DNA of 64,000 bases from Membranipora membranacea (taxonomy: Eukaryota > Bryozoa > Gymnolaemata > Cheilostomatida > Membraniporidae). The stretch covers positions 15,062,948 through 15,126,947 of the forward strand of contig OU612071.1 of assembly GCA_914767715.1 (NCBI GenBank), given 5' to 3'. Each line of letters starts with the position of its first letter. Position 1 is the stretch's first letter. Shown one piece after another: positions 11,318 to 61,173 of this stretch. The notes under the pieces were generated by a model. The model ran no database searches. It saw only the letters and a program-made list of their open reading frames with translations, and had not been told where the DNA came from. A program made the position numbers and the translations under genes.

Positions 11318-14300
11318 CTAATTCCCACATAAGCAGTCATGATGGCTAAGTGGTAGCCGAGCAGTTTTTGAATCATTGTGAGAATTTTGAGTAAAGTCAA
11401 TAGTCACCGTCCCACTGGGGACACAAGGACGCTTTCGAAATTGATCAGCTATAGAAACTCCCCCGACAACACCTGTCAATATCAAGAAGACACGTTACTG
11501 TTTTATAAGCTATATTGGCAATGAGTCATCCAAAAGGTGCACAACGCCTCTTCGAAATATTAAATTCACAAATGTGTATTATTTGTTGTGTACTGGGTTG
11601 TTGTTAATAACCACTCTAGAAAATGTTTACTGAATTTATGATGAAGCAGTATAGAATTACATGCTCCAAATGGAGTCAGGATAGTTATATTTCACTGACA
11701 CAACGGAAATCAAAGTAATCGTCAAGCAACTCATGATAATTCAGTACTAAGCGATCTTACGAATACAAAACAGTAGACAAAAATTAGGCAGGAAACAAAG
11801 TTTTGTATAGATCATTCACGCTGATCACGTGATAAATACTACTGCATGTATATGTCTGATCCATAGAGAGTGAATTAATACCAGTACCAGTACCAGCACA
11901 AGGAATTCGGAGTAACGACCCATGTTCAATTTTATCAATTAGGGATGGGTACATGTTAGGTATTGCTTTCAAATTTATTCTATCAATTAGAGGTACACCT
12001 GATAATAGTGAGCCAGGGCTGTTGTTTAGGGAAAAATGATGGGGGAGGTGCAAAAACCCTTTAAGGTGTAAATCACCAGAAGTAGCACCACCAGCCTCAA
12101 GAGCGTTCCAATGATATAAATAGCAAATGGAAGCTGATTCTGACATCGAATATTAAATTATAGCATTTTAGGCAACTCACTTGAGCACTCTATGGGGGGG
12201 GGGAGGGGGGTGGGGGAGAGCGCCCCTGCCTTCACTAGCTCTACAGGCCTGTAAACTTACGTGGACCACAGTAACCCTTGCAGACTCTTATTGTTATTTC
12301 GTTCGGGAGGTCAGTGAACCGAGTTCCTTCTCCAATCAGGGTAGGAAGACTGATGTTCCTTTCTTCTAGGCAGCAGCCAGAGAATCCCTCACTACACAAT
12401 GGGGCCATAAGTCCAACATCGCTCCTCAGAACTTCTACAAGATTAAAAATAAATTGACATTATTTTTAATTAATATTATTTTTAAATAACAAATTAATTA
12501 TTCATCAATAATATTATAAATTAACCACATTGGGACTGTTCGATGCTGGTTTTCTTCCAAAGAATTGAATGTCTGCTACTTGGATAAATAAGTGACATTA
12601 ACTACTTGGTACCCATGGTGAGCAAGGATATTACAAAGGACCGATACTGATCAGTCAATCAAAATAACTAAAACAAATTATTCGGAGCTGATAAAATAAC
12701 AATTAACTGTTATTTGACACTGTTGATATTGACCATATTATTAATTAATAAAATTAACATTGATTTATAGTATTTTCAATTATTTAAAAATAATTAATTA
12801 ATAATAATTAACTAATATTATTTTTAATTGATTAATTTAGTTTTAATTATAAATGATATCAATAAATATTAATTATTTTTTAATCAATATTAATAATGAC
12901 AATAATCAACCATATTGGAGAATCCAAAAGTAATCTAGTCTATTCAAACACCGTTCTTTATTCGGCAAAATCTGAAAAAACGTTGAGCCCTAAATATTTT
13001 GTATTTTGGAACTAGCTCAAAATTATTTCACAGTGTTACTGTAAACAGCTTGGGGCCAAAATAACCCAAGCAGTCTAATCAGTGTAGTCTGGTTAATTGA
13101 ATAAAATAAAATAATTAAAACTAATCAATATCATCATCGTGTGGCCTATAATTCAAACTATGGTAGGTACAACTTATGATTTTTTTTTATCATGGGAGCC
13201 TCAGTAAGAAAACAATGAGCAGTTCATCATAGCCTCTGCTGGTTCACTAAATATACAAAGAGTTTTCTTAACACATACCATTCAAAACTTCAGACTCACA
13301 GGATCCATTTCTGAGAGCTTTATCACGTTTCTCCCTGGTGTCAATAGTCTGTGCGAGAAAATAATCTGTAATATAATATATATATCATAATATAATATAA
13401 TATATATAATATGATGACCCAAACCGTCTTCAGTATTAGTAGAAGGTGGCTCAGTTGGTTAGAGAACCGGACTTCAGCATGCAAGTGTTGAAGGTCGTGG
13501 GTTCAAATCCAACTGCAGTCTATCGACTACCGGGGTTTGGTTGATCCCCAGGTGTGCTCTGACATGCCAGTAAACTGAGAGCAAATTGGCGCAGACATTG
13601 CGGCTTCACCCTTAAGGCACAAAATTTTTCGCCACCCATTCTTCGGAATGAGGTGCGTGACCGAACCTTGCAATTATAACCAACATTTAAACCAACAGTA
13701 TATTATAACGATAGCTCTGTCTAACAGGCATAAACTAAATCTGACGATTTGAGGATCTCTATGTTTGAAGGCATTTTTTAGTGGTCATTTCAATACATAC
13801 AATCTCTTCATAATAATGTTCTATCAGGGGGTAGATATATAACATTAGTGTGGTAAAACTCACATGCACATACACACACGCACACACACACACACGCTCA
13901 CGCACACTGCATGCACAAATAACAGTTGTGTGTGAGTTAAAGTGGGTTAAAATGTGGGTTAAAATCGCAATTCTGTCTCTGTTTGAAGACTGAGAAATAA
14001 CAGTGCCTTAAGGGCGCGGCCGCTGTACACAGCGCAAAGTTGATCTAAGTTTGCAGGCCTAGTAATCAGGAATTTTGTCTCTCTTATCTCTGCAGAGTTC
14101 TTTTTTCAGATATGAAGCCGATACAAAATAATGAGGAGCGAACCAGTTGTGAACAGTTATGACGAACCAGTTGTGAACAGTTATGACGAACCAGTTGTGA
14201 ACAGTTACAATGATAGTAATTTTATATATATTCTAGAAATTTTAGAAATATGTTCAAAGGTAATTTTCTCTCTATGGTGGAAAGGTGTGGTGAAGCAGGC

Positions 14301-16149
14301 TACAAGTGAGACCATATCAGTAACAAACACATTCTTAGGCAATGTCAAAGAGCTGCAATACCTTTTCCCAAAATCTTTTTTGAGGGAACTGAAAATGATC
14401 TTCACCTGAAATGAGGGTGTATGTCTCCTATCCGAAACAATAAAATTCTCATGCAATATCAATCCATACAGCATCACACAAACATTACCACGCACATGCA
14501 CATATTCTTAACATAAGATACACAAACTCACAACTCATACAAAAGCACAGCGATAGTGAACTGCTCACCTCTCTTAGAGGGTTCTTTCTTCAGAGATGAG
14601 ACCTCTGCAAAATAATTATAGTTGTTAAAGTTGTTTCAGCAACGAAATATGTGTAAATCCCTACTTATACACATTGAATCAGTATCATAAACACCACATC
14701 ATTTTAGTTAGGTTATATGAACAGGAAAAAACATCGCACTGCCCTGTGAGATTGCATTAAAAGGGGAAATATCTATGTCTGTTTTCTAATTCAATTCCAC
14801 AGAGAGTTTGGCCTTACCCAAATTCCAGAAATAATTTATGGAAGAATGAGGCAAAGAGCATTGTTAGTATTAAAGCAATAGATGCGCCTCCCCATATTTG
14901 GTATGATATTGAAGGTCTCAGTCTAATTAAGGGCACCAAGGCAACCTTTTGAATAGGTTTTATAATGCACAGTTGTTAGTATCAAAATAATCTTGTGTTC
15001 AGGGTAATCAATATGATGACTTGTGATTTTAGATTTCCCACAATCCAATAGAAAGTAGTCACATGACTTCCTGGTGGCAAACAAATGTGATAAACAATGT
15101 CTGAGTTCTCACAGCTTTGTAGAAAGGCCAGACAACCCTGATATTTGGAAATGCGGTGGGATATTTGATACTTTGTTTTGGATTGATTTCAGTCCAAACA
15201 ATAGCTTTAGGAAAGTTTGATTTCCTGTGTAATCACAGGGGCGTAGTTAAGAAAAAATGGTAGTGGAGGCGAAAATCGTTGAGAGTGTGAGGTAATACAG
15301 GTTGGGTATTGTAAGCTCCTCCTGAGTCCCCAGCCTCCAAGGCGTTCAATGATCTAAATAGCAAATGGAAGTCCTAAATGAGCTGATTCTGGCATGGGAT
15401 ATTCAATTATAGCATTTTAAGGCCACTCTATTGAGCATTCTAGGGGATGCAGAGCGTCCCTGACTCCCCTAGAACTCCGGGCTTGAATCATGAACTGCTC
15501 ACCTTCTCTTACTGCTTTGAGCTCCCTTGCCACGGCTGAAAGCTGGATGATTACGACTATAATCACCACTACAGTAGAGAGTAGTCCTAGTATTTTCAGA
15601 GATGTTAGCAATAATCCATTGTTATTTCCTGCTACACTTTTAGAATGGGACTGTAAGTTGGGACTCCGTTCTACATAGCTAGAATCGGCTCGCCTATGAA
15701 GTGGAAAACACACATAGTAACTTTTTTTTAAACATTTTATTGGCAGTCTATTTCATTCCACTAGCGGAATGTTTTCCGAATAGTGTTGAAAATGTAGTGG
15801 CTAAATCAAAACGAACTCTTGGTATGATTAAGAGGGGCCTATGCTTCGCTCCTATTGAGACTAAGCTACGCAGGACTGGTATTGAAAACAATCTAGAACG
15901 CATGCAACGCAATGCTGTGAAATGGATTTACTACCTGAAACGACTTGAAAGTGTGTCAGAATGCATAACAAAAAATTCTATTTGTTTATTATCTGACAGA
16001 CGGGATAAACTTGATGCTATCTTTCTGAGAAAGATAGAGGCTGGATTGTTTGAGGTACAGTTAAACCAATAGGTGAACTTCGCATCTGCCGACCATCCTC
16101 AAAAATGTTTTGTCGCTTAGTACATACAACGAACTTACCTTTGGGCCAT
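11318..16149 (-). CDS. Gene A: type II membrane cystine-knot (TGF-beta-like) ligand
   Basis: Model: exons 16149-16139, 15693-15503, 14604-14569, 13365-13279, 12434-12261 and 11472-11318; 654 nt, 217 residues, GT/AG borders, phase 2 after exon 1 and phase 1 after all others. Residues 1-30 are polar and 31-57 form one transmembrane helix (LLLTSLKILGLL, then Val/Ile-rich); no cleavable signal. A short stalk follows, then REKR (90-93), a furin-type site, and the knot domain: C122, C129-C130, CxGxC at 160-164, C183 in CVP, and CxC at 213-215, ending CGN. The C..CC / CxGxC / CxC plan and the 29-residue gap after CC fit TGF-beta/activin-like folds; PDGF/VEGF is the alternative. One NIS sequon at 135. 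Only one Cys stands where most TGF-beta ligands have CC, so the usual inter-chain bond may be missing. Cleavage at REKR would release the ligand (inference). Confidence 0.8.
12014..12251 (+). mobile_element. MITE, CAGGGCCGTAG family, next to a splice donor
   Basis: Begins CAGGGCTGTTGTTTAG and ends TCTACAGGCCTG, with a G-rich tract near 12194. Its right end is only about 9 bp from the exon 5 donor of gene A. Gene B lacks it in the matching intron, so it arrived after the A/B duplication. Confidence 0.7.
12525..12650 (-). promoter_or_regulatory. C-type leader/promoter copy inside gene A intron 4
   Basis: 12532-12580 matches the C2 and C3 leaders upstream of their start codons (C2 44574-44622, C3 61177-61225; shared CCAAAGAATTGAATGTCTGC), and 12600-12632 matches the sequence above their TATA box. 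The TATA box is not kept here (TTATTTATCC instead). It lies just upstream of cystine-knot exon 5. Either a fossil of a C-type promoter or a weak internal promoter. Confidence 0.55.
13372..13412. repeat. TATA/ATAT microsatellite
   Basis: Run of TAATATA/TATATA units directly upstream of gene A exon 4 in the coding direction, overlapping the region where its acceptor TATATTACAG sits. A CA-rich run follows at 13868-13905. Confidence 0.7.
13445..13690 (+). mobile_element. tRNA-derived SINE (family 1)
   Basis: A-box-like GGTGGCTCAGTTGGTTAG and B-box GGGTTCAAATCC, then the family body (GGTGTGCTCTGACATGCC, GAGCAAATTGGCGCAGA). Other copies lie at 17340-17583, 25640-25862, 31225-31826 and 37385-37615. 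Confidence 0.85.
14088..14130 (-). pseudogene. Decayed duplicate of gene A exon 3
   Basis: On the minus strand TCATATCTGAAAAAAGAAC matches exon 3 (TCATCTCTGAAGAAAGAAC at 14569-14604) and continues with a similar tail. Its acceptor reads TTGTATCGG rather than TTGCAG, so it should not splice. It lies about 450 bp downstream of the real exon 3. Confidence 0.55.
14138..14210. repeat. 24-bp tandem repeat, three copies
   Basis: GAACCAGTTGTGAACAGTTA followed by TGAC occurs three times, within intron 3 of gene A and antisense to it. Translation on the plus strand gives EPVVNSYD repeats, but no gene structure supports coding. Confidence 0.85.
15236..15485 (+). mobile_element. MITE, CAGGGCCGTAG family, shared with gene B
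   Basis: Begins CAGGGGCGTAGTTAAG and ends GAACTCCGGGCTTG; AATCA flanks both sides (15231-15235, 15486-15490). It sits 17 bp inside intron 2 of gene A. Gene B has a MITE of the same family and orientation 20 bp inside its own intron 2 (29926-30154), so the insertion predates the A/B duplication. Confidence 0.85.
15725..16075 (+). pseudogene. LINE reverse-transcriptase C-terminal fragment
   Basis: The open frame contains SKRTLGMIKRGL and ENNLERMQRNAVKWIYYLKR and ends near DRRDKLDAIFLRKI, typical of the region after the polymerase core in non-LTR retrotransposons. It has no catalytic motif and lies antisense in intron 1 of gene A. Its first 60 bp recur inverted at about 26935-26990. Confidence 0.6.
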
Positions 16150-17200: not shown

Positions 17201-17211
17201 AGACAAACTGT

Positions 17212-17290
17212 TCATCGATGGGGCTCGAACTGAGGCACTCATGATCACAAAACCAGCCACCTCTAACACTGGGCTATCCCTGATATGTTA
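17212..17290 (-). mobile_element. tRNA-like SINE head (family 4)
   Basis: The minus strand reads GGGATAGCCCAGTGTTAGAGG, a change of loop, then CAGTTCGAGCCCC, the A-box and B-box layout of a tRNA. Similar heads lie at 38070-38160. No long body is recognisable. Confidence 0.5.
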
Positions 17291-21009: not shown

Positions 21010-23865
21010 GTACATGTATCTTGGAGTTGATTGATTGATTTATTACTATCACAAACATTAAATGTCGAGAAAAAAGGACGCATATGCTTTGTCATAATCA
21101 GAGGTTGCTACTAGTGCATGGAACTTTGGTTTAAAAAAAAAAGAATCTCATTAAGTGTGATGCACATTTGTCTCAGAAAACAGTCTTTGCCCCATGAGCT
21201 GCGATATTTAACATGTCTAAAACGGCCAGAAGGGCAACTTCAAGAAAATCGTGTATAAAATGATCTTCATCAGAAAAACAACACATGATAATGGATTTAG
21301 TTCTCTGTTTAACAATAGTATCGAGGTCACCTACGTCAAGCTCTAAATTCTCTGCATTATTGAAAATTTTTCGCAGTAATTACTTGTCTTTAGCATATAT
21401 GCTAGTGTGCAAAACAGGCAGACAATACATTTAGAGTGAAACTACATACCTTTGGACAGCATGGAAGCTAATGGCTTTGAACTCAGATACATAAAATTGT
21501 TTTCAACATACATCCTTTGACTTGCTTTTCCAGTTATTTTATGCACATAATCTTTGAATCTCAGTCTGTTGTCAATCTCTACACCATATACCGGTGCCAT
21601 CTAGAGTCAGTTTAGGAGTATCAGGTCTGAGACGTTGAGTAGAGAAAAGCATTTCCTTTGTCTTAGAAGCATTAAGTAGTAAATCTAAATCAGTGCATTG
21701 TTTGGAGATTCTTTTAATTTCAGAAAAATAATTACATAAGTCTAAATCATTACCAACTAATCCAATTACCCAAGTGTCATCTGCATATTTGAGTACTGTG
21801 ATATTCCACAGTCTAGATGTAATCCTGTTTGTATAGATAGAGAATAATAGTGGCGAGATTACACTGCCCTGGGGAGTTCCTGTATGTGTCAATATCGGCG
21901 CAGACAGTTGATTGCTCACCATTGTTTGCTGGACACGTTTACTCAAGAAGCTATTAACCCATCCTATTACTCTGGTCTCGAGGTGTTGTAGCAGGGGGAT
22001 TAGAGACTCTACTCTGATAGTGTTGAAAGCAGAAGAAAAATCCAGAAATAAACATCTTGCATAGTTAGAGGCTGCTTGGTCAATAAAGTTTGTGATAGTT
22101 GTTGTTAGGCATAAGACAGCATCTTGTGTTGATCTTTTCTGGCGGTAGGCAAACTGATGGCAGTCCATGGCTGTGTGTTTAGTAATGTATAGTTTATTGT
22201 ATATATATATTTTTTCTCCCTAACATTTTACATAGGCAGCTGGTTATGGCGATCGGACGGTAGTCTTTGAGTTGTGTAGGTGTAGTGACTTTTGGTAGTG
22301 GTTTTATTACAGCAGATTTCCATAGCTTAGGTGTCGTATGTTGCATTATAGATTTATTGAACAGTTTAGTGATAACAGGGGCTAGTTGGTAGGCACATAT
22401 CCGAAGGACCTAAGGGATTAATCCATCGGGTCGAGCTCCTTTCCTAGTTGTGAATGTTTTCAGTTGTTTGAGAACAGTTTCTTCATTCACTTCAAATGGA
22501 GGAGCAGTCATTTTGGTTTAATTGATATCTGGGTTATTTATTACAGGTTTCTCATAGCGTGCAAAGAAGTTGTTCAGGTCGTCTGGTTTATATTAAATTT
22601 CATGTTCAGTTGTAGAGGTTGATGTAGGAAGTCCATTTAATTTCTTAATATCTTTCCAAGCTCTGGCCGGCTCATTGATTAGATGTTGTTGAATTCTTTT
22701 GGAGTATTCCACTTTTGATTTGGTGATTTCTTTGGTGACTAATTTTTTAAGTTTATGATACAGTTTTCCATTTCCACTTTGGTGTGCCTCTTGTTTCTGT
22801 TCAATCAAACTATCTATGTGCTTGGACGTAATCCATGGTTTCTGATTTGTGTGCTTTTTAAATGTTTTCTTAGGTATGCACAGGTCCGTACAGAAGTTTA
22901 TATAATCCAAGATGTCATCCGTCTGTTTATTAATGCATGTTTCGTCAAGAAGATTATCCCACAGGGTGATATCCAAACTAGCCTGTAGAGCTTTGCAGTT
23001 CTCATCTGTATATTTTCGGTTTGTGACATATGAAGGTTTAGTTTTTGACAGAGGCTTGTAGCTAGGTATTAAATGCATGACATGGTGATCAGAAAGGCCA
23101 AGTTTAGCAAGTTGGTGGCAGTGACTGTAGCCGTTCTTGATTCGAGTGAAGCATTTATCCGGATTTTTATTATTCCGAGCAGGTTTCTTGATTATTTGGT
23201 AGTAGTTGTTGAGCTTGATTGGTAGTTGATTAAAGTCTCCCATCAGTAGTATGCAGGCATTAGGGTATGTAGTCTCAATTTCTTTTAGATGTGAAGTTAT
23301 AGTGTTTATAGTCGAGGCGGTTGTATCTTTGAGTCTTGATTTTTCCAGTGAAAGGGGTATTGCATGAGGTAGTGATGATTGAAGAGATCGCAGTGATTGT
23401 CCGTATGATTGTAGATAGTCTGATTATTTGTTGACCAGCATTTATCGATGTACATCAAAATGCCTCCTCCTATTGTCTTACCACTATCCTCTGGTAGCCT
23501 TTCATTTCTAAACTGTTCATATACATCTAGTTCTGTCCGTGATTTTGAGATGTCAGGGGTAAGCCAGGATTCGGTGATACATATAACATGAGAAAAATTT
23601 TCGAGTCGTTTGGTGTTTAGCAGTCCATATAATTCATCAAGTTTATTACACACAGAGTTAGCATTTGTAAGTGCAATTGCTGGTGGAGGGACTCTGCCTT
23701 GGTTCCTGCTTAGGTTGACTCGTTCACCAGATCGCCTTCCTCGTTTCTTAATTTTTAATAATCCAGGATCAGTTTGTTTTACAAGTTTTTGATAGATTTT
23801 TAATATCCATAATAGTAGCATAGTTCGCATACTCAAGGCTCCTCACTCCTTTTGGATGTAATATA
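21010..23865 (-). pseudogene. Dead non-LTR retrotransposon (CR1/L2/Jockey-like LINE)
   Basis: Three collinear broken frames on the minus strand. 23836-23306: N-terminal half of an apurinic-type endonuclease (LTNANSVCNKLDEL, ICITESWLTPDI). 23243-22593: endonuclease C-terminal half (MGDFNQLP, LGLSDHHV) and linker. 22168-21572: reverse transcriptase with FAYRQKRSTQDAV, LFLDFSSAFNTI, TGTPQGSVISPLLF and the catalytic YADD. A frameshift near 21600 moves the thumb region (IDNRLRFKDYV) to the next frame, with further breaks between the blocks. It sits in the spacer between genes A and B and cannot make a full protein. Confidence 0.85.
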
Positions 23866-29043: not shown

Positions 29044-32000
29044 ATGGCCGGAAGGTAAGTTTAGTGTGTCGCTACATATGTCACAAATGAACAAGACGTT
29101 GTATGTACTAAGCGACAAAACATTTTTGAGGATGGTCGGCACATGCCTAATCCACAACACCTATTGCCACCAAGTAAAGCCTAAGTGCCAACTCTCATAA
29201 TTATTTTGATTGGTTCTTGGTTCAAGTTATGTGAGACCAACATGCAACAACATCTTATCTACATTCTCTAGGTTTTATAGTATTACCTTGCCACTTTATT
29301 GAGCATCCTAGGGGGGGGGGGGCATTGCGTCCCTGCCTCTCCTAAAACTACGGGCCTGTAGTACTATGTCGCTACATGGTCTCCTGGTGATGATGTTAAT
29401 CTTGCATGCTGTTTCTTGGTTCAAGTTATGTGAGACCAACATGCAACAACATCTTGTCTATGTACCCAAGGTTTTATAGTACTGCATTGAATTCTAGGGG
29501 GGGGGGCATTGCGTCCCTGCCTCCCTTTAAACTACGGCCTGTAGTACTACATCGCTGCGATGTTGTCTCCTGGTGATGATATTGTTCTTTCATGCTTTTT
29601 TAATACTTTAGTGGATTTGTTTTATTTATTTGGATTTATTTGGATTTATTTGGATTTATTTGGATTTATTTGATTTAACGTTTCTTTGTTTCTTTTCTCT
29701 AGTCATGTGGGACCAGCAGCTGAAGGAAGGCGTGAGACTAGACGTGACGTGGAGTCCCGGGCCTCCAAAAGTGTTAAAGGGAACGGGGATGGATTATTGC
29801 TAACATCTCTGAAAATACTAGGACTACTCGCGGCTATCTCAGTGTTTATAGTCGCCTTTGTTCAACTCTCGTTCATGATGAAAGGACTCAAGGAGATACG
29901 GACAGGTGAGGCGTACATGATTTCGCAGGCCCGTAGTTATAGGGGAGGTAGGAAGGCACTGCCTCCCCTAGAAAGCTGAATACAGTGACTCTAAAACACT
30001 ATAATTGAGTAATCCATGTCATAATCAGCTCCTCTGGGATTTCCATTAGCTAATTATATGCCTTACAGCTTACAGCACTCCTCCTGGTGATGCTGCACAC
30101 ACTTTTGCTTCCCACTTTTGCCTCCCCTACCATTTGTTCTAAACTACGGCCCTGATTCACAACACTGAATTAAATTCTTCTCATGGGACTGAAATCATAA
30201 TTTCATACAGTTAGAACACTCAACACATGGACTCATCTCCCATGGATTTGATATTGCCTGTCCCTACTAGCCTGGGGAAATTGACTTGTTTAAAAAACTG
30301 CAAACAGTATTAAATGCCTTCAGCGTCCATGATTCGGGCTTTCCTGGAATGCTTCTAGGGACTGGCTTTTTGTGAGCCCATTGTTTGCAAAAAAAACCAA
30401 CGATGCTATTCCAGATATGGAATTCAATGTTTCACAATATTATTTTAAAGCTATAGTTGTGCCTCCATATTTAGTATCATATTGAAGGTCTCAGTCTAAT
30501 TAAAAGCACCATGGCTACCTTTTGATTAGCCTATAAAGCCTATAAACACAGTTGAAACCTTCAGCTTTACTAAAATAAATGTGAAAGAGCGATAAAGAGA
30601 GGACAACCCTTGTGGTTGAAAAAATTGCTTTAGTATTTTAGTATAAAGCAGATGGTTTCAACTGTGTTCATAGGCTATTCAAAAGGTTGTCATGGTGCTC
30701 TTAATTAGACTGAGACCTTCACTATGATATCAAATACGGGAGGCGCAACTATAGCTTCAATACTAACAATGATGTAATGAAACCATGCTGTTTGCCTCAT
30801 TCTTCCATAAATTATTTCTGGAATTTTAGAAAGGCCAAATTCTCTGTGGAATTGAATACAGACATAGATATTTCTGATTTTGATTTGACTTCACAGGGCA
30901 GTGCTATATTTCTTCCTGTCCATATGACCTAATTCAAATGATTCAGTATGGATAATCACATATTTCGTTGCTGTAACATTTTTTGTTATGATATAACGGC
31001 ACATTTTTTTCCCCATAATTTTGCAGAGGTCTCATCTCTTAAGAAAGAGCTCACTGAGAAAGAAGAGATAGATACAGGTGGGCAGTTCAAAGTTCAAAGT
31101 TCATAATTGATCACAAACATTAGGTGTGTGCTTATGTATGAGTTGTTAGTATGAGTATGTATGTTCAACTAACTCACAGTGGAGCCGTCTGAGAACTTAG
31201 ACTAATGTATGCTATAAATATCGCAAGGTTCAATCAACGCTCATTCCGAAGCATGGGTGGCGAAATAGTTTGTGCCTTAAACCACTGCTGCCACACAGCC
31301 AAATATGTGCTTATAGAATTCTGTGTAGCTCAAAACTAATGAAATGAGGCTGCAATCTCAGCATTGTCACCTGATGAGCAAATAATGTGCACAAACTGAT
31401 CGTCAAAATTAGGGTATGAAATTAATTATCTACCGCAGCGTGACGTAGTTATCGTCTTACTAGTGCACACTGTACACGTCATATGCTGGTGCGTAGATTT
31501 CATGCCCTGATTTTGAAGATCAGTTTGTGCAAATTATTTGTCCATTAGGTGACAATTATGAGAATTAAGTCTCAATTAATTATCTTGGAGCTATGCAGAA
31601 TTCAATGAGCACAAATGTGCATGAGTGTCAGCAGTATGTTAAAGGGCGAGGCCGCAGTGTCTGCCCAATTGGCTCTCAGTTTATAGGCAGGTCGAAGCAC
31701 ACCTGGGGATCCGACAAATTAGTACCAGTAGTCTATGAACTGCAGTTGGATTCGAATCCATGACCTTCAACACTTGCATGCTGAAGTCGGGCACTCTGAC
31801 AATCTGAGCTACCCCCTACTCCTAATGGCCGATGAATATTTGTTTCATTACATTATATATATTATATTATATTATATCATATTGCAGGCTACTCTCGATT
31901 TAAAAATCTCACTTTCGACGGCAAATTTACCGATCTCTCAAAGCTTACGGGTAACAAGGATTCAACATCATGCAATGTTGAAATTTCACCAGGTATGTAT

Positions 32001-35000: not shown

Positions 35001-36038
35001 TCACAATGGGTACTGAGCTGTAAATGTCACTTATTTATCCAAGTAGCAGACATTTAGTTCCTTGGAAGAAAGCCAGCATTCAACAGTCTGAATATGGTTG
35101 ATTAATAATATTATTAATGAAAAAATAATCTATTATTGAAAAAAATTAATTAAAAATAATATTAAATACAGTTAATATTAAACATATTATTAACAATTAA
35201 TTACTAAAACTAATAGACATTAATATTAAAAATGATATTAATTGATATTAATGAAAATTAATTTAAATAATTAATAAATAATAATATGTTTAATATTAAC
35301 AGTATCCAATAACAGTTACATGTAATTGTTATTTTAACAGCTCCGCAGCTCCGCATCGATCCCAAATATCATACCAAAGACTGTGAGGAGGGCGATACTG
35401 GCTGCTGCTTCAAAATAATTTATCGTCAACTCAGTGAATTGTTAGGACCTGATAGCACGTCTGATCTCCCAAATGGGCCGGTACCTATAAGAGTCTGCCA
35501 GGGCGTTTGCGGTGCACGTAAGTTTACACTGAGTTTACACTAATAAGTTCACGCTGACCTGGTTACAAAACTGCCTAATCTTGTCCATTGTTTTGCATTT
35601 GGAAGATCGCTTGGTACTGAACTGTTACGAGTTGCTTGACAATTACTTTGATTTCGTCTGTGTCAGTAAAATAATTATTTCCCAGCTCTCATTTGCACAT
35701 GTTATTCTGTACTGCTTCATCATCAATTCAGCAAACATTTTCTAGAGTGGTAATTAACAACAACCCAGTACCTGCACAAGAAATAATACATGGATGTGGA
35801 TGTAAGAGGCGTTGTGCATCTTTTTGGTGACTCAGTGCCGATAAAGCTTATAAAACAGTCACGTGTCTTCTTGATATTGACAGGTGTTCAAGGCGAGTCT
35901 TCTGTAGCTGATTTCCTGCGGGGTCGTCCATGTGTGCCCTATGGTACAGTAGATCTTGATTATTCTGTTAATAATGACCTGGGGTCAAAACTATACAAAA
36001 TACCATTTAGCCATAGAGAGTGCGTATGTGGAGCATAG
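29044..36038 (+). CDS. Gene B: type II membrane cystine-knot (TGF-beta-like) protein
   Basis: Model: exons 29044-29054, 29703-29905, 31027-31077, 31888-31992, 35341-35517 and 35884-36038; 702 nt, 233 residues, same phases as gene A and an identical 155-nt last exon. Residues 1-34 are polar and basic, about 35-61 a transmembrane helix (LLLTSLKILGLL, then hydrophobic), then a stalk with EVSSLKKEL shared with A. Knot cysteines: C138, C145-C146, CxGxC at 176-180, C199 in CVP, CxC at 229-231, ending CGA. There are 29 residues between CC and CxGxC. NLT sequon at 95. Unlike A, C2 and C3 it has no basic furin motif between helix and knot, so it may stay membrane-anchored (inference). The exon 4 donor lies in a GTAT microsatellite and the exon 5 acceptor in a dispersed repeat. 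PDGF/VEGF is the alternative fold. Confidence 0.8.
29212..29548. repeat. Tandem duplication of about 195 bp in gene B intron 1
   Basis: TTCTTGGTTCAAGTTATGTG and the following sequence occur at about 29212 and 29407, each ending in a fragment of the CAGGGCCGTAG MITE with a G-run (GGGGGGGCATTGCGTCCCTG). Confidence 0.75.
29618..29675. repeat. 12-bp tandem repeat before gene B exon 2
   Basis: About five copies of TTTGGATTTATT ending 30 bp before the exon 2 acceptor, replacing a normal pyrimidine tract region. Confidence 0.8.
29926..30154 (-). mobile_element. MITE, CAGGGCCGTAG family, shared site with gene A
   Basis: Starts CAGGCCCGTAGTTATAGG and ends AACTACGGCCCTG, 20 bp inside intron 2 of gene B. 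It is preceded by ACATGATTTCG, where gene A has TCATGATT before its own copy. Confidence 0.8.
31225..31826 (-). mobile_element. tRNA-derived SINE (family 1), split by a MITE
   Basis: The 3' part lies at 31225-31280 (CATTCCGAAGCATGGGTGGC, GTTTGTGCC) and the 5' part at 31639-31826 (GGGCGAGGCCGCAGTG to GTGGGATTCGAATC-like B-box and GCTCAGATTG). A 358-bp foldback MITE sits between. Confidence 0.8.
31281..31638. mobile_element. TTAA-targeted foldback MITE, copy 3, inside a SINE
   Basis: Perfect TTAA on both sides (31277-31280, 31639-31642). Other SINE family 1 copies read GTGCCTTAAGG at this point, giving the empty site. The arms pair along nearly the full length (ACCACTGCTGCCACAC / GTGTCAGCAGTATG). 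The TTAA target fits piggyBac-type or Kolobok-type transposition. Confidence 0.85.
31991..32047. repeat. GTAT microsatellite containing the exon 4 donor of gene B
   Basis: (GTAT)n from the splice junction onward, with two GTGT variants, so several in-register GTATGT donors are available. Confidence 0.85.
32640..35340 (+). repeat. Repeated C-type leader modules in gene B intron 4
   Basis: Copies of a module seen upstream of C2/C3. Leader cores at 34741-34788 and 35043-35090 (TTTGGAAGAAAACCAGCATC), a partial one near 32690, and the associated TAATATCCTTGCTCACC / ATTTTAACAGCTCCG pieces near 32855-32960, 34915-35010 and 35330-35345. Each core ends in ATATGG, but the following frame stops almost at once, so no signal peptide is encoded. 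Confidence 0.6.
33100..34690. other. Intron DNA, no feature identified
   Basis: AT-rich intron 4 of gene B. Two stretches (33340-33560 and 34440-34600) resemble each other (AAATTTGAGCATAGCATATT), an internal duplication. Frames at 33763-34207 have no support. Confidence 0.4.
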
Positions 36039-36055
36039 ATGATGAGGTATTCGCA

Positions 36056-36215
36056 ACAACAACCTCAACAATTTCAACAACAACAACTTCAGCAACAACA
36101 ACTTCAGCAACAACAACTTCAACAACCTCAACAACTTCAACAACCTCAAAAACTTCAACAACCTCAAAAACTTCAACAACTTCAACAACAACAAAAATAA
36201 CTTGAACAACAACAA
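36056..36215. repeat. CAA/CTTCAA microsatellite directly after gene B stop
   Basis: CAACAACAACTTCAG-type units starting 18 nt after the stop; counterpart of 10944-11303. Confidence 0.85.
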
Positions 36216-36959
36216 TATCATTCCCGGACAACTGGAGACCTAACTATTATTATTTTACATATTATTATATTTACGTCTGACATAATACAACCAGAACTAT
36301 TATATAAAGTATACTGTTGCTGCTTTCAATATCAAATGTTCTTATAAAAGAGTTAACCTCCAAGATTATACAACCAATCCAAAGTTCATTGAGATGAAAT
36401 TACTATCACCAATAATAATCGTCTGTAATGTTGAACAAGTGAATTCATGTATGACAAAACCCATTGTGGGGGTCCGAGGGACCCTGTAAGCCTCCTGACA
36501 GGGTTCAGGCAATGCAGAGTCACCATAGCTGGCCAGGCACATAACCATGGTATCATGTCTTTGGCAACCTGGTGCAGTAAATACAAGCAAAACATTGGAC
36601 TAAGCTTTTAGGTGCAAAACCGGGGTGCTTGTAGGACTATCTGGTGTCATAGGGTAACTCCCTTCAATATAGAAGTACTTGTCATGTATGTGTGAATCTC
36701 AAAATGCCAATATGTATGAATTTTACAGTTCGGAGTGTTTGTAGATAATAGTTAGGTGTTTCTTGTCCAGCTTCACAGGGCAGACATTGCTAGTTAAATC
36801 AATGGAATTTTAAATTAATTTGTCACAGGTTATAAAAAATAATCATCTCATTGCTTTCTTGATAGAGTTAACTTCTTGTAAAATGTTTTTAATTCATATT
36901 ATATATTATTATAATATCATTATATTATCATAAATATATCATTTCTTATTCATATTATA

Positions 36960-39003: not shown

Positions 39004-39444
39004 CAACAAGAGAAGAATGGAAATATCTGGAGATCTGGAGATGTACATTTAGTTCATCAAGTTTGAGTATTGATAACCTAGTTTCGTAACCATCCGATAT
39101 TTATAAGCATCCCATACTTGACAGCAATAATTAATTCTGAGGTAATAATTTGTATCATGATCCTCTTTCAGCGATAGGCACTATATATTTCAACTCCCCA
39201 CAGTGTTTTGAAGTCTGTATGCTCCTATGATGAATAAAATTAATATCTATCTATCTATCTATCAGCAGCAAATTTTAATCACCAATTTGCATCAAATGAG
39301 AAGACAACTCGGTATTTCTATTGAGTTGCGACATTTGCGACGTTAGTGGGTGCAAGTATTTGCAACGTTTAGAAAAATTGCGATGTTATAAAAACCCTTC
39401 GTTGCGACAATTTTGGGATTGCGACGTTAGTGGAACGCTAGATT
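39004..39444 (+). repeat. Inverted repeat, left copy (partner 46960-47400)
   Basis: About 440 bp nearly identical in reverse to 46960-47400, including a (TATC)n tract near 39246 and the distinctive TTGCGACATTTGCGACG and CCCTTCGTTGCGACAATT sequences. No coding capacity; the mobile family is unknown. Confidence 0.8.
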
Positions 39445-42010: not shown

Positions 42011-44570
42011 TTAGTGAGCTCCACATATGCAGTCCTGACGGTATAGGTCTACATAGGATTTGCGTAGCCCTCCATTTTCTACACGAGAATAAGGCAGTTG
42101 GACTAAAGGTCCAGATTCCACACATTGTCTGCCACGAAGAACCTCAGATACGGCTCCTGAATCACCTGTCAATATCAATTTAACATTACAAGTTTATAAA
42201 AATCAAGTTTGAATAGCTTTACCTCACTGAGTCACTGAAAGGGCATTTCAAAGAGGGACATTCATAATGACAGTTACAACTGAAGCTTAAATGACCACAG
42301 ACAAGATAATGTATTTATACTGCAGTAGCAAAAATCAAGCTATTTATCAACAACTCATAATATTTTAGTCACAACTATATTGATAATAATTTTTATATAC
42401 AATTCATTGGATAAGAGCCCAAATCCATTAACAGTATGAGTAGTGACCAAATAGGGACCTGCAGCTCTCAGATTGAGAAGCTCAAATCCAAACCCCTACA
42501 CCGCCCTGCCAAAAAAATGTTCATTGTGTTTTACATTTGTTTTTACCCTCAAATTTGGGGCAGCATTGATGATAGGCAGAATATCGAATGCTGACCATGA
42601 GTCACTCTTCACATACCTGGACACCTGCCGTGGCAGATCTTAATTGTTACCGGTTGCTCTGGCAAGTCAGTAAATTTGCTGTTCCCCAACAACTCTCTCA
42701 AGGGGACCTCTCTTTCTTCATGACAGCAGCCCAATTGTTGACCCTCAACACATATTGGTGTGCTAAGGCTTCTCTTGTTTCGCTTCTCCGTCGCTTGATG
42801 AGGTTGGTTAGGTTTTTTTTCCATCAGATCAACTAGCTTTGTGACGCTAGATACGCTCCCAGATCCTTGGTGCTCTTCTGCAGAAAAAAAACAACTTTCT
42901 ATTTATTAAAAATCATAATAAAGAATGTATGTATAAAGTGATATATAGACAATAATATAATATTATAAACTACATATATTTATGAGTGTGTTGACATATA
43001 CGACCAGTTGCAGTGAAGTTGAGTTATTCAAAATCACAGTATAAATGTTGTCCTTGCCAGGGGACCTGATAGAATAATTTGACGATGATCAGATAATCCT
43101 GGATTCTTTAGGACCAAGGACCAGCATTTGAAGCAGCCATCTTGGGAGGAGCAGCAGTATTCTCTGCATACTTGCCAAGTAATCTAAATACAAAATAGGG
43201 AGATTCCATTTTACGGCGATACTGCACCACAACGTGGTGCTTCGAGGGTGCGAAGCACCCGAGTCACCCACCTGGGGGTTTGGGGGCGGTGTGAGGCCCC
43301 CAACGGGATACGGGGCGGAGCCCCGTCTGCAGAAACGGAGCCCCGTCTGCAGAAGCTCTGAGAGCATTTCAAGCCACTAGGAAGGGCTAAAAAGGTATAT
43401 TTGACCCCAAATAATTTCATGTTTGTACTAGTACTAAAATATCAAACTGAGGTGAAATACTTCAAACAATTACATACATGCCTTTACATTGTCAATGTCC
43501 AGTATCAAACACCCCATTGGCAAAGTAGAGGCATGTAAGTCCCAGGGGCCTTTGCCTGTCAAGACAGGCTACAAGTGCCCATGCATCATCAAGATCTGAA
43601 AATGTGCTCAGTCACAGCAGGCTACTTTATTTTTGTTTGACTAACATTAAATATGTTTCAAAGTCTTTGGTCCGAGATTTGTTTAATTGTAGTGGACCTA
43701 CCTTTGGAATTGTTAGGTTTCTATTTTCCTTCACTTAAATTTAACTAGAGTAGACAGTGAGTACAAAATTAATACTAAAAAATGTGTGATCTGAAAGGAA
43801 ATGAAAACTAAAGGTATGCATTTGACTAGCTACTTTATATTGTGACCAATGACAGTCAGTGTTGTGAGTTATGAGAGGATGCTATTGGTCATTTACAATA
43901 ATAGGCTGAATCTTAACAAAACAGGTAAATTTGTTAGGATTGTTAAATTTGATAATTCCTTTCAATTTTGTGTGCAAAGACCTTAACAGTAACTAGTCAA
44001 CAACAACATGTGCTTGGATAACTATCAAAAAATTGCGATTGGACTGTTTTCTCTAAAATCTGGAGGAAATAGTGAGATTTACAAAAAGTGGGAGGTGGGT
44101 GTGAAAATCTGGAGGGTCACGCCTAAATCGGGAGACTTGGCAAGTATGATTCTCTGCTTTTTTCTTTTCTCCTAGGATTTTGGGCAACTTGGTGGTGTCT
44201 TGAAGGAGCTTTCATTTTAAATTTGTTTAATAATTTAAACAATGTCACAAACGAAGCTCTGTCATTTTTTTGTTTTCAGATGAAATTAACACTTTTAAAG
44301 CAGACTGCTCTTACCAAGCAAACAAGAACCACAAATTAAATGAAACTCTAGGCACCATGTTCTTTTAAAAACATGATTCAACAAGCTCAACTAGTGTTGT
44401 GGATGAGAAGTACCTGTAACCAAAGTTTTGCCCAGAGGCGATGTAGTCATTAGATGCCCTTCTTTCTCATTGCTATCTTGTTCGTCTTTCGATGACAGAA
44501 AAGGCTCAGGATATCCAATAGCACTGCCCAGAACTGCTAGAATAACAATGAACTGAAATGTTGATCCCAT
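42011..44570 (-). CDS. Gene C2: secreted cystine-knot (TGF-beta-like) ligand with furin site
   Basis: Model: exons 44570-44414, 42877-42617 and 42165-42011; 573 nt, 190 residues, both introns phase 1. I take the second in-frame ATG because it starts a clear signal peptide (MGSTFQFIVILAVLGSAIG) and lies 68-74 nt from a TATA box. Residues 20-88 form a short acidic/Gln-rich propeptide ending RNKR, a furin site. The mature part (89-190) has C95, C103-C104, CxGxC at 134-138, C154 and CxC at 185-187, ending CGAH; 29 residues separate CC from CxGxC as in A and B. The alternative phase-0 junction at exon 1 runs into a stop, supporting this model. A propeptide of about 70 residues is far shorter than usual for TGF-beta ligands. 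A single Cys at 154 replaces the usual CC. Intron 1 carries a 982-bp transposon. PDGF/VEGF-like is the alternative. Confidence 0.85.
43167..44148. mobile_element. Non-autonomous hAT-like element in gene C2 intron 1
   Basis: 982 bp. Perfect 14-bp terminal inverted repeats CATACTTGCCAAGT / ACTTGGCAAGTATG and an exact 8-bp duplication ATTCTCTG (43159-43166, 44149-44156). Gene C3 has a single uninterrupted ATTCTCTG at the same place (about 60751-60758). No transposase; 43205-43365 is a GC-rich, hairpin-prone block. Confidence 0.9.
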
Positions 44571-46530: not shown

Positions 46531-46959
46531 TGATAGAAAATCAGTATTAATTGTATTTAGCCCCCATCTGTGGGGTTATAAGTCTGGGGGGATGGGAAGT
46601 CAGCTGGGGGCTAAGAAGATTATTATCTGTATTACGGACAAAACTGCTCACTCAATGCCTGGGATATTCCTGGCCTGCAAAGAAAATTTTTACCATAATT
46701 TATTATTTTGAATTAACCTTAAAGGTATTCCAGTTGCTCCCCCTTCAGCTGCAGGAAAAAACTTTGAAGATTCTTTGGCTTGCGGAAAATGCACACCATT
46801 AACTTACTGTGGATCTTGAATTGGAGTGGGCATTTCTTGTTGGTCTTTTTTTTGCAAAGAGTGGTTTCCAGGCAGAAATCATGCGGTAAAGAATAAAATG
46901 TTTTGATACATTTTTTGGATATTTCACCTTCCTGCTTAATAGGATCTGAGATATCATAT

Positions 46960-47400
46960 CTAGCGTTCCACCAACGTCGCAATCCCAAAATTGTCGCAAC
47001 GAAGGGTTTTTATAACATCGCAATTTTTCGAAACGTCGCAAATACTTGCACCCACTAACGTCGCAAATGTCGCAACTCAATAGAAATACCGAGTTGTCTT
47101 CTTATTTGATGCAAATTGGTGATTAAAATTTGCTGCTGATAGATAGATAGATAGATATTAACTTTATTCATCATAGGAGCGTACAGACTTCAAAACACTG
47201 TGGGGAGTTGAAATATATAGTGCCTATCGCTGAAAGAGGATCATGATACAAATTATGACCTCAGAATTAATTATTGCTGTCAAGTATTGGATGCTTATAA
47301 ATATCGGATGGTTACGAAACTAGATTATCAATACTCAAACTTGATGAACTAAATGTACATCTCCAGATCTCCAGATGTTTCCGTTCTTCTCTTGTTGGTG
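46960..47400 (-). repeat. Inverted repeat, right copy (partner 39004-39444)
   Basis: Reverse copy of the left repeat with few differences. It interrupts another repeat whose uninterrupted form is at about 48975-49180 (GGATCTGAGATACCATCGG). Confidence 0.8.
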
Positions 47401-49945: not shown

Positions 49946-49951
49946 AGTAAC

Positions 49952-51136
49952 TGTGGGATTCCAGGGTTATGGAGTCACCACATTAACTCTCCGCTACTGA
50001 GATCTGTGCTCACGAGCTCGGTATGATGATGCTCACTATATGACACTGACTTATTTATATGGGATATCATTTGATTCGATCAAACACTTGACTCCAGAGC
50101 ATGCCTTTTAATTCTTATCAAGTTTAACATTAAACACAATTCAACTTAACAATGCATGTATTATTTCTACAAGTCATATTTTCTAGTCAATGATGCCATG
50201 CATGCTGGATTTAATTCATTTAACTCAATTAGGTGATGGTATAGAAATCCAACCAAATGTTATACTGTGCCATTATTAAATAATAAGGCGAGTTCTATTT
50301 CCCTATAAATATCACTACTGTACAATAAATGAAAATATTATAATAAAAACTGTAAAACTTTCATGTTTAAAAACTGACCTGTCTCCAGAATGAAGTTGCA
50401 AAACAAAGAGCGCTGCTTGACGACCAGAGGGTCGCCAAACAAATCAAATCAATTCAAATCCTTCAAAATCAATTATGCTTTCCATTGGTGAACCATGCTC
50501 TTATATAGCATGGTTCCAGACACATTAAAAAACTGCTGACGTCAATAAGCAAAAAAACAAGATTTAAACACAATTTTCAATTACCGCAAAAAGAGGGTTG
50601 ATCGGCCACAAGCGTGGGTTGATCGGCCACAAGAGTTGCTAATTCTGAATTGTATCTGTTGGCGCCGGTGTTAAGAATAGAATTTAGATTGGAATATATT
50701 TGCATATCCCGGATTCGAGGTGATATGCACCGGCTGGTAACTGCTTGTCCTCCAGTCAAGGTTTGAGTGTACTGATGATGATGCTGGCAAAGATATTGGA
50801 TGTTGTTATTGTGTCGGATGTTGGTATAGACAATTCTCCTGTTTACTGGTGTATACGACAATGCTAATTCTGAATTGTCTCTGTTGGTGCCACCTTTACT
50901 GCATTGTCATGGTTGTCACGGTTCTGGCGTTAGGGTGGCACCGGTATTAAGAATAGAATTTAGATTTGCATATATTTGCCTGTCCCTGTTTCGAGGTGAT
51001 TTGCACTAGCTGGTAACTGCGTGTCCTCGAGTCGAGGTTGAGTGTACTGATGATGATGCTAGCTATAATATTGGATGTTCTTATTGCGTCTGATGTTGAT
51101 ATAGAAATTATCCTGTTTGCTGCTGTAAATGCGACA
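49952..51136 (-). repeat. LTR, 3' copy in element orientation
   Basis: 1185 bp, TGTGGGATTCC...ATGCGACA on the plus strand; the 94-codon frame at 50577-50861 recurs unchanged in the partner LTR. Confidence 0.9.
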
Positions 51137-51410
51137 TATGCACCCCCCTGGTTGCAATCGTCCTCGATTGCTATGACAATCCTTTGATCTGATGTTTGGA
51201 TGCGACATCTGCACCCCCCTGGTTGCAATCGTCCTCGATTGTTATGACCATCCTATGATCTGATGTGTGGATGCGACATATGCATTCCCTTAGTTGCAAT
51301 CGTCCTCGATTGTTATGGCATGTTATCCGCTCCCTGCTATTGATGCGACATCTGCATTCCCTGGTTATGATCGTCCTCGATCGCCGTGACATGTCACATG
51401 ATCTGACAAG
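51130..51410. repeat. Tandem repeat of about 73 bp abutting the LTR
   Basis: ATGCGACATMTGCAYYCCC...CAATCGTCCTCGATTG recurs about four times. The unit contains the last bases of the LTR and the purine-tract complement. Confidence 0.8.
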
Positions 51411-56012: not shown

Positions 56013-56030
56013 CTCACTCGGCGAGCACCA
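56013..56030 (-). other. Primer-binding site of the LTR element
   Basis: Minus strand TGGTGCTCGCCGAGTGAG, two bases from the LTR; complementary to a tRNA 3' end CTCACTCGGCGAGCACCA. I cannot name the tRNA. Confidence 0.7.
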
Positions 56031-56032
56031 AT

Positions 56033-57217
56033 TGTGGGATTCCAGGGTTATGGAGTCACCACATTAACTCTCCGCTACTGAGATCTGTGCTCACGAGCTC
56101 GGTATGATGATGCTCACTATATGACACTGACTTATTTATATGGGATATCATTTGATTCGATCAAACACTTGACTCCAGAGCATGCCTTTTAATTCTTATC
56201 AAGTTTAACATTAAACACAATTCAACTTAACAATGCATGTATTATTTCTACAAGTCATATTTTCTAGTCAATGATGCCATGCATGCTGGATTTAATTCAT
56301 TTAACTCAATTAGGTGATGGTATAGAAATCCAACCAAATGTTATACTGTGCCATTATTAAATAATAAGGCGAGTTCTATTTCCCTATAAATATCACTACT
56401 GTACAATAAATGAAAATATTATAATAAAAACTGTAAAACTTTCATGTTTAAAAACTGACCTGTCTCCAGAATGAAGTTGCAAAACAAAGAGCGCTGCTTG
56501 ACGACCAGAGGGTCGCCAAACAAATCAAATCAATTCAAATCCTTCAAAATCAATTATGCTTTCCATTGGTGAACCATGCTCTTATATAGCATGGTTCCAG
56601 ACACATTAAAAAACTGCTGACGTCAATAAGCAAAAAAACAAGATTTAAACACAATTTTCAATTACCGCAAAAAGAGGGTTGATCGGCCACAAGCGTGGGT
56701 TGATCGGCCACAAGAGTTGCTAATTCTGAATTGTATCTGTTGGCGCCGGTGTTAAGAATAGAATTTAGATTGGAATATATTTGCATATCCCGGATTCGAG
56801 GTGATATGCACCGGCTGGTAACTGCTTGTCCTCCAGTCAAGGTTTGAGTGTACTGATGATGATGCTGGCAAAGATATTGGATGTTGTTATTGTGTCGGAT
56901 GTTGGTATAGACAATTCTCCTGTTTACTGGTGTATACGACAATGCTAATTCTGAATTGTCTCTGTTGGTGCCACCTTTACTGCATTGTCATGGTTGTCAC
57001 GGTTCTGGCGTTAGGGTGGCACCGGTATTAAGAATAGAATTTAGATTTGCATATATTTGCCTGTCCCTGTTTCGAGGTGATTTGCACTAGCTGGTAACTG
57101 CGTGTCCTCGAGTCGAGGTTGAGTGTACTGATGATGATGCTAGCTATAATATTGGATGTTCTTATTGCGTCTGATGTTGATATAGAAATTATCCTGTTTG
57201 CTGCTGTAAATGCGACA
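56033..57217 (-). repeat. LTR, 5' copy in element orientation
   Basis: 1185-bp partner of 49952-51136. Confidence 0.9.
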
Positions 57218-57492
57218 TAACATCCATGTACATTTGAAAATAGGGTTTCGTTGAATTACAGTAAATTCTATTTCAGTGTATAGAAAAAATGCAGCCAAAT
57301 AAGCCAAAGAAAAGTCTTATGTTCACATTGTAAAACTCATCCTAGAGTTGCATTCAGGTTTTTGTGTGGGCTAGTGCTAGGATAATTATTATATGTGCTC
57401 ACATTGTCTGGGATCATCTGGGATCATCCCAATGTCACATTCATCAAATTAATTAACATTCTATCTTCAATGCTGTTCATCTGCTATTCATT

Positions 57493-59643: not shown

Positions 59644-61173
59644 TTAGTGAGCTCCACATATGCAGTCCTCACGGTATAGGTCTATATAGGATATGCGTAG
59701 CGCTCCATTTTCTACACGAGAATAAGGCATTGGGACTAAAGGTCCAGATTCAACGCATTGTCTGCCACGAAGAACCTCAGATACGGTTCCTGAATCACCT
59801 GCCAATATCAATTTAACATTACAAGTTTATAAAAATCAAGTTTGAATAGCTTTACCTCAGTGGAACACTGAAAGGGCATTTCAAAGAGGGACATTCATAA
59901 TGACAGTTACAACTGAAGCTTTAATGACCACAAACAAGATAATGTATTTATACTGCAGCAGCAAAAATCAAGCTAGTTATCAACAACTTGTAATATTTTA
60001 GTCACAACTACTTATATTAATAATAATTTGTATATACCATTTATTGAATAAGAGCCCAACAAATCCAAACAAATCCAAATCCAAATCCAAACAACTACAC
60101 CGCCCTGCCAAAACCATGATCGTTGTGTCTTACATCTGTTTTACCCTCAAATTTGGGCAGCATTCATGATAGGCAGGATATTGAATGCTGACCATGAGTC
60201 ACTCTTCACGTACCTGGACACCTGCCGCGGCAGATCTTAATTGTTACTGGCTGGTCTGGCAAGTCAGTTGGTGTGCTGTTCCCCAACAACTCCTTCAAGG
60301 GGACCTCTCTTTCTTCATGACAGCAGCCCAATTGTTGACCCTCAACACATATTGGTGTGCTGAGGCTTCTCTTGTTTCGCCTCTCTGTCGCTTGATGAGG
60401 TTGGTTAGGTTTTTTTTGGATCAGATCAACTAGCTTTGTGACGCTAGATACGCTCCCAGATCCTTGGTGCTCTTCTGCAGAAAAAAACAACTTTCTATTT
60501 ACTAAAAATCATAATATATATATGAATTAAGTGACATATAGACGATAATATAATATTATAAATTACATATATTTATGAGTGTGTTGACATATACGACCAG
60601 TTGCAGTGAAGTTGAGTTATTCAAAATCACAATATAAATGACGCTCTTGCCAGGGGACCTGATAGTATATTTTGATGATGAACAGATAATCCTGGATTCT
60701 TTACGACTAAGGACCAGCATTTGAAGCAGCCATCTTGGGAGGAGCAGCAGTATTCTCTGCTACTTTAATTTCTCCTAGGATTTTGGGCAACTTGGTGGTG
60801 ACTTGAAGGAGCTTTCATTTTAAATTTGTTTAATAATCTAAACAATGACACAAGCGAATCTATGTCATTATTTTGTTTCCAGTTGAAATTAACGATTTTA
60901 AAGCAGACTGATCTTACCAAGCAAACAAGAACCACAAATTAAATGAAACTCTAGGCAGCATGTTCGTTTAAAAACATGATTCGACAAGCTCAACTAGTGT
61001 TGTTGATGAAAAGTACCTGTAACCAAAATCATGTTCAGAGGCGATGTAGTCATTAGATGCCCTTCTTTCTCATTGCTCTCTTGTTCGTCTTTAGATGACA
61101 GAGAAGGCTCAGGATATCCAATAGCACTGCCCAGAAATGCTAGAACAACAATGAACTGAAATGTTGAGCCCAT
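59644..61173 (-). CDS. Gene C3: secreted cystine-knot (TGF-beta-like) ligand with furin site
   Basis: Paralogue of C2 with identical exon lengths: 61173-61017 (157 nt), 60474-60214 (261 nt) and 59798-59644 (155 nt); 190 residues, no stops or frameshifts. Signal peptide MGSTFQFIVVLAFLGSAIG, RNKR furin site at 85-88, and all eight knot cysteines at the same positions as C2. Differences are scattered (LMEKK to LIQKK, KICHGRC to KICRGRC, QLPYSR to PMPYSR), and no cysteine is affected. Intact exon borders, TATA box and frame suggest it is a functional gene. Introns lack the 982-bp insertion of C2. Same fold uncertainty as the other members. Confidence 0.85.

Follow-up and report, generated by a model that had tools for sequence, protein, structure and literature searches.

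The 64-kb window of Membranipora membranacea DNA analysed here (contig OU612071.1, positions 15,062,948 to 15,126,947 of the forward strand; coordinates below are those of the window) contains four genes with intact frames (A, B, C2 and C3), each encoding a small cystine-knot domain, which is apparently secreted in C2 and C3 and apparently membrane-anchored in A and B. They span 11318-61173, from the A stop codon to the C3 ATG, and their splice junctions are all canonical GT-AG. In the translation of the window the first half of the knot is encoded at 12396 (-), 35382 (+), 42752 (-) and 60349 (-), and the second half lies beyond an intron of 366-788 nt that splits the knot in all four genes. 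In 4/4 genes the last exon measures 155 nt, and the intron preceding the knot exon and the intron within the knot are both of phase 1. Four genes with a common knot pattern, a 155-nt last exon and phase-1 introns in the knot region had been proposed in an original prediction made on this DNA, and all of this was borne out: the assembled frames are open, with GT-AG junctions and eight cysteines each. The parts, with exon joins as we infer them, are as follows.

61017..61173, minus strand: C3 exon 1, with the start codon, the apparent signal peptide MGSTFQFIVVLAFLGSAIG and the start of the pro-region; ends in phase 1
60214..60474, minus strand: C3 exon 2, 261 nt, with pro-region, RNKR cleavage site and knot cysteines 1-5
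59644..59798, minus strand: C3 exon 3, 155 nt, with knot cysteines 6-8 and the stop codon
61237..61248, minus strand: TATA-box-like CTATAAAAGCAG upstream of the C3 start codon, a putative promoter element
44414..44570, minus strand: C2 exon 1, 157 nt, with the apparent signal peptide
42617..42877, minus strand: C2 exon 2, 261 nt, with pro-region, RNKR site and knot cysteines 1-5
42011..42165, minus strand: C2 exon 3, 155 nt, with knot cysteines 6-8 and the stop codon
44634..44645, minus strand: TATA-box-like CTATAAAAGCAG of C2, a candidate promoter element
16139..16149, minus strand: coding part of A exon 1, ATGGCCCAAAG, donor AAG/GTAAGT, phase 2, aligned to its B counterpart
15503..15693, minus strand: A membrane-anchor exon, 191 nt, with the putative cytoplasmic tail, transmembrane segment and start of the stalk; ends in phase 1 at GTGAGC
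12261..12434, minus strand: A knot exon, 174 nt, cysteines 1-5
11318..11472, minus strand: A last exon, 155 nt, with cysteines 6-8 and the stop codon
12525..12637, minus strand: block resembling the C-type 5' untranslated region (UTR) and start codon, in the A intron before the knot exon, 75% identical to C3
29044..29054, plus strand: coding part of B exon 1, ATGGCCGGAAG, donor AAG/GTAAGT, phase 2
29703..29905, plus strand: B membrane-anchor exon, 203 nt; ends in phase 1 at GTGAGG
35341..35517, plus strand: B knot exon, 177 nt, cysteines 1-5
35884..36038, plus strand: B last exon, 155 nt, with cysteines 6-8 and the stop codon

The knot common to the four genes reads C-x6/7-CC-x29-CxGxC-x15/18-C-x29/30-CxC-G and contains eight cysteines, spaced [6,0,29,3,18,29,1] in A/B and [7,0,29,3,15,30,1] in C2/C3. 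In 4/4 genes the CC of the dimer cysteine is replaced by a single Cys, and the spacer leading to it is 15-18 residues long; as had been predicted, this Cys stands in CVP in A and B, while C2 and C3 carry CVE. Exon 2 has 16 columns that are invariant among the four genes, and exon 3 has 10. Profiles of these two exons, searched against the six-frame translation of the window, found four places each (E 8e-29 to 2e-33), the next-best E values being 1.3 and 0.064. The shared knot pattern is not due to chance. C2/C3 and A/B are each duplicates, so the four genes are not independent. No significant fifth copy was found by this search of the window, and an extra exon-3 match at 8111-8019 (-), E 0.064, was taken as chance.

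C2 and C3 are apparently secreted-type precursors: each of 190 residues, they have an apparent signal peptide (called by inspection, in C3 also by hydropathy), a short pro-region, an RNKR site followed by SL, and the end CICGAH. Secretion, followed by cleavage at RNKR, would release a 102-residue mature domain. The two genes are a direct duplication with 91-95% identity; their synonymous divergence (dS) is 0.083, their non-synonymous divergence (dN) 0.058 and that of their introns 0.078-0.107, so that exons and introns show no contrast. Identities obtained for their promoter (71%) and 3' (52%) regions came from poorly matched coordinates and were not used. About 975 bp at 43174-44148 (-), within C2 intron 1, is missing from C3 at the duplicated site, and C2 is flanked by a 440-nt inverted repeat (39004-39443 and 46958-47397, 97.5-98% identical), possibly a pair of mobile elements.

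In A and B the upstream part is differently built. A signal-peptide first exon was searched for in both: A gave no hydrophobic ATG frame with a listed phase-1 donor (donor patterns in the first-exon and anchor-exon searches came from limited lists), and the few candidates in B (27626, 28937, 29366, 31825) were judged unconvincing. The signal-peptide exon was dropped and an anchor exon preceded by a phase-2 ATG exon adopted instead. Upstream of both genes, on the correct strand, lies an open frame with a strongly hydrophobic stretch, in which A matches B at 63% identity (E 2.8e-21) and which has a phase-2 acceptor at its start and a phase-1 GTGAG donor at its end in both; further upstream an aligned conserved block contains TAATGGCC..AAG/GTAAGT, a first exon of three complete codons that ends in phase 2, its coding part being only 11 nt. 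The joined models are open with GT-AG throughout, and at 176 (A) and 181 (B) residues they fall outside the range of 190-233 residues that the original prediction had given for the four genes, which does hold for C2 and C3. They comprise a putative tail of about 37-41 residues, the membrane segment and a stalk of 22-23 residues up to the first knot cysteine. The tail has a net charge of +3 before the membrane segment, and the following 15 residues 0 (A) or +3 (B), a distribution that fits a type II orientation better for A than for B and is proof for neither. When the A and B knot parts were scanned for motifs, no RxxR site was found, only a KR pair in A, and none was seen in the stalk when read by eye. 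A and B look like type II membrane proteins with the knot outside, and the "four ligands" originally proposed comprise two architectures, the secreted-type precursors C2 and C3 and the apparent type II membrane proteins A and B.

It could be objected that the genes are pseudogenes or wrongly joined exons, the joins having been read from genomic DNA alone and the first exons of A and B contributing so short a coding part. We consider this very improbable: all four frames are open with canonical splice sites, dN/dS is below 1 in 6/6 gene pairs (0.38-0.70), and the boundaries and phases of the anchor exon agree between A and B. All dN/dS ratios were calculated on ungapped codons only, 107 for A/B, 190 for C2/C3 and, for the anchor exon, 47 of its 63 and 67 codons.

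The intron before the knot exon may preserve a trace of how this arrangement arose. The C-type 5' UTR and start-codon block listed above for A is found again in B, near 34746 and near 35050. A search for 19 nt from the core of the C-type 5' UTR gave five occurrences in the window at <=3 mismatches against 0.04 expected, at 34746 and 35050 (+) and at 12554, 44597 and 61200 (-), with two of the occurrences preceding the B knot exon. We infer that the block in the A/B intron is a relic, and A and B may therefore have exchanged a signal-peptide exon for the membrane-anchor exon. After the A and B anchor exons there is also a short repeat readable as QARSSRGGRDALPPLES (near 15485-15438 and 29926-29976), which recurs elsewhere in the window (near 7541-7479 and 2015-1968) and is likely the end of a mobile element.

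The family of the knot was examined by comparison with reference sequences of the TGF-beta set, GDNF, the glycoprotein hormones (GPH), Lefty (human only) and others; the TGFB2 letters used agree with 96 residues of PDB 1tfg. For the domain alignments C2 and C3 were trimmed to the part after RNKR, and A and B were represented by their two knot exons. Whole profiles were compared with hhalign, globally and locally, and against shuffles in which the cysteine columns were fixed and the remaining columns permuted. The four-gene profile scored 26.1 (global) and 27.6 (local) against the TGF-beta/activin/BMP/GDF set, values reached by 0/100 shuffles (maxima 13.6 and 21.6), and 27.4 and 30.8 against LEFTY1/2, again reached by 0/100 (maxima 13.1 and 18.7). 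The global alignment with LEFTY1/2 covers 97 columns at 26% identity; its spacer does not require the long gap seen in the alignment with the TGF-beta set. Lefty was the best profile match among the families tested. GDF15 alone gave 25.6 locally, above all of 200 shuffles (maximum 22.2). No whole-domain hhalign alignment was obtained for PDGF/VEGF, GPH-beta, NGF, GPH-alpha or Norrin (the last two compared without the shuffle test), and the global scores of PDGF/VEGF and GPH-beta were reached by 99/100 and 27/100 shuffles. The readings as PDGF/VEGF, NGF or Norrin were set aside in this way.

Searches with hidden Markov models (HMMs) in HMMER gave a less clear picture. An HMM of the four window genes, run against eight sequences, placed LEFTY1 first (matched by 4/500 shuffled targets), then GDF15 (12/500), activin A and TGFB1. 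In the opposite direction, scores on A, B, C2 and C3 were reached by 14, 16, 0 and 8 of 500 shuffles for the TGF-beta HMM, by 21, 29, 35 and 21 for that of GDNF and by 15, 148, 4 and 14 for that of GPH-beta. An AlphaFold2 model of the exon-2 half shows strands, a short helix and a strand leading into CxGxC (predicted local distance difference test score 73), and the first of two rows returned for it by Foldseek is activin A (E 4.5).

Several results weigh against placing the knot in the TGF-beta superfamily, or close to Lefty. Pfam returned no family at E up to 10 for the C3 precursor or any of the four domains, and sequence and profile searches of the PDB each returned one unrelated chain and no TGF-beta chain. 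The finger-1/2 signature (W, P-GY) is absent from the four-gene alignment. When Lefty is added to the TGF-beta set the scores drop to 21.6/23.1, still reached by 0/100 shuffles; GDNF, at 18.9 globally and 22.7 locally, also exceeds all of 100 shuffles (maxima 12.8 and 22.4); and the local scores of PDGF/VEGF and GPH-beta are reached by only 3/100 and 2/100, as is that of the GPH-beta HMM on C2 by only 4/500. With single sequences HMMER gives GDF15 a higher score than LEFTY1 for A, C2 and C3, its scores are weak (LEFTY1 E 26 at a PDB-sized search), and none of them would reach significance in a database search; nor are the structure matches of the modelled exon halves significant.

These points can be read as favouring an independent cystine-knot lineage, GDNF-like, glycoprotein-hormone-like, PDGF-like or unrelated, whose spacing has converged and which lies outside the TGF-beta superfamily. 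Besides the missing Pfam and PDB matches and the behaviour of GDNF under shuffling, LH-beta, a glycoprotein hormone beta chain, shares the CxGxC-x18-C spacer and the CxCG end (CRCG in LH-beta), but differs in having additional cysteines and another spacing elsewhere; the GPH-beta reading, attractive for these features, is not preferred because no whole-domain profile alignment supports it, even with a local score so rarely reached by shuffles. We regard an independent lineage as unlikely, since TGF-beta-superfamily sequences alone align across the whole domain and, globally as well as locally, stand widely clear of the shuffles, and since C-x6/7-CC at the N-terminus is the arrangement of TGF-beta, activin and GDF15. 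Membership of the four-gene knot in the TGF-beta superfamily is probable. The profile searches suggested with the original prediction thus gave a divided answer, negative for Pfam and PDB sequence searches and favourable to the TGF-beta superfamily between profiles; its proposal of a TGF-beta/activin-type knot with no CC dimer cysteine and a shortened spacer finds its support in these profile-profile scores and in the spacing.

Within the superfamily the closest design is that of Lefty/Antivin, a natural antagonist that blocks Nodal/activin-type signalling. Lefty has CC, 28-29 residues, CxGxC, a spacer of 18 residues as in A and B (15 in C2 and C3), one Cys in place of CC and a CxC near the end; the spacing of Lefty1 from CC onwards is [0,28,3,18,34,1]. 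A named subfamily with this design therefore exists, contrary to the original prediction, which knew of none. The differences are considerable: Lefty precursors are about 366 residues long, with an extensive pro-region and a tail that continues past CxC at the C-terminus, whereas the window genes encode 176-190 residues, stop directly after CxCGx and are without the finger W/P-G signature, and A and B are apparently membrane-anchored without a signal peptide. The Lefty-type design of the four genes is clear as a pattern, and their being Lefty orthologues is unproven. GDF15 and the activin/TGF-beta ligands resemble them in C-x6/7-CC, CxGxC, CVP, about 30 residues, CxC and the profile signal (spacings [7,0,27,3,28,0,30,1] for TGFB1 and [6,0,28,3,28,0,30,1] for GDF15), but differ by the CC dimer cysteine, a spacer of 28-35 residues with the heel helix and a long pro-domain, and none is known to be membrane-anchored. 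A further parallel is an engineered TGF-beta2 mini-monomer (PDB 5tx2, 5tx4, 5tx6, 5ty4), in which the heel segment was removed and the interchain Cys replaced. With 92-93 residues (5tx2, 5tx4, 5tx6), a single Cys as in the window knots and the spacing [7,0,27,3,9,30,1], it has by design both losses of the window knots; it differs in being man-made, in its spacer of 9 and in being TGF-beta2 elsewhere, and is reportedly dominant-negative.

Taken together, we give an even chance to the explanation that the four genes encode monomeric mini-knots of the TGF-beta superfamily, of Lefty/Antivin design, secreted in one pair and anchored in the other, which antagonise or tune the pathway. The interchain cysteine would have been lost, and the stretch from CxGxC to the following Cys, which forms the heel helix, would have shrunk to 15-18 residues from about 28. 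All eight cysteines that are left could pair inside one chain in four bonds. With no cysteine spare, no interchain Cys and so short a heel segment, a monomer is predicted. Each knot, if it has the predicted fold, would bind a TGF-beta-family receptor, co-receptor or ligand by one face and, without bridging two receptor types, antagonise or tune the pathway, C2 and C3 diffusibly and A and B at the cell surface, with the knot at the outer end of the putative type II anchor. The anchor exon fits in with this: between A and B its dN/dS is 0.32 over the 47 codons compared, and it has the same exon-specific divergence as the knot exons. Lefty and the engineered mini-monomer share both losses, and for this reason we consider monovalent binding and antagonism most likely; the four proteins may act as blockers with a single binding arm, made by nature, or as signals passed on contact.

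The proteins could instead be agonists, non-covalent dimers that signal, with A and B as juxtacrine activators. Loss of the interchain cysteine by itself leaves dimers possible, as in the GDF9/BMP15-type ligands, which lack it and pair non-covalently, and C2 and C3 retain an apparent signal peptide, a pro-region and an RNKR site like normal ligands. However, the heel-helix segment, which packs in canonical TGF-beta dimers, is also shortened here, as it is in Lefty and in the engineered monomer, and we hold agonists to be distinctly unlikely.

A and B are an inverted duplication. Aligned non-coding blocks of the two genes have Jukes-Cantor distances of 0.11-0.25, whereas exon dS is 0.94 (anchor, 47 codons), 1.20 (knot) and 0.82 (last) and exon dN 0.31, 0.68 and 0.54, respectively; in the anchor exon dS is 0.32 in the first 24 codons and saturated beyond. 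Around the last exon identity is 95% in the 40 nt before, 60% across the 155 nt and 90% in the 21 aligned bases after, and the least similar 155-column windows begin 5-7 nt from the start of this exon. The A/B exons are far more diverged (dS about 1) than the introns and flanks around them. The non-coding likeness is patchy, since neither the beginning of A intron 2 nor some of the sequence preceding the knot exon can be aligned between A and B, and some of the flanking blocks hold elements with other copies in the window. The high exon dS would be explained if gene conversion acted on the introns and flanks while conversion of the exons was selected against; accelerated change of the exons is an alternative.

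Such divergence would also suit knots that have left TGF-beta signalling and act as rapidly evolving proteins of recognition, whether in immunity, between self and non-self or between gametes; the anchored form would then be receptor-like and the secreted form ligand-like. The clustered paralogs with two modes of delivery, the A-B dN of 0.6 with omega about 0.6 and exons kept apart while introns stay alike speak for this. We find it rather improbable, as none of the six gene pairs has dN/dS above 1 (0.38-0.70). A related and bolder proposal, which we put forward as doubtful, is that of a natural family of monomeric mini TGF-beta folds in which the same knot is secreted or type II-anchored by exon swap, with paralog exons kept distinct and introns and flanks homogenised, forming a membrane-tethered recognition or antagonist system.

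Other elements of the window include a direct repeat of 1190 bp with 99.9% identity, 6081 bp apart (49949-51138 and 56030-57219), which is either a very recent duplication or an assembly duplicate, and a broken retrotransposon of the long interspersed nuclear element type at 21572-23842 (-), with a reverse transcriptase (Pfam RVT_1, E 1.7e-23) and, in shifted frames, pieces resembling an endonuclease, for which the Pfam match is weak (E 0.33). A CAA-rich degenerate microsatellite follows the stop codons of A and B at about 15 nt (10879-11313 and 36054-36220).

If the explanation by monomeric mini-knots is right, nature has made, in very short genes, the same change that engineers made to TGF-beta2, dropping the heel helix and the dimer cysteine, and has also placed a TGF-beta-type domain on a membrane anchor, which is not known from any other member of the superfamily. 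In the four genes it could then be tested on a small scale whether a monomeric design is enough to make an antagonist; they would be of interest as well as a case of diverged exons beside introns that are alike.

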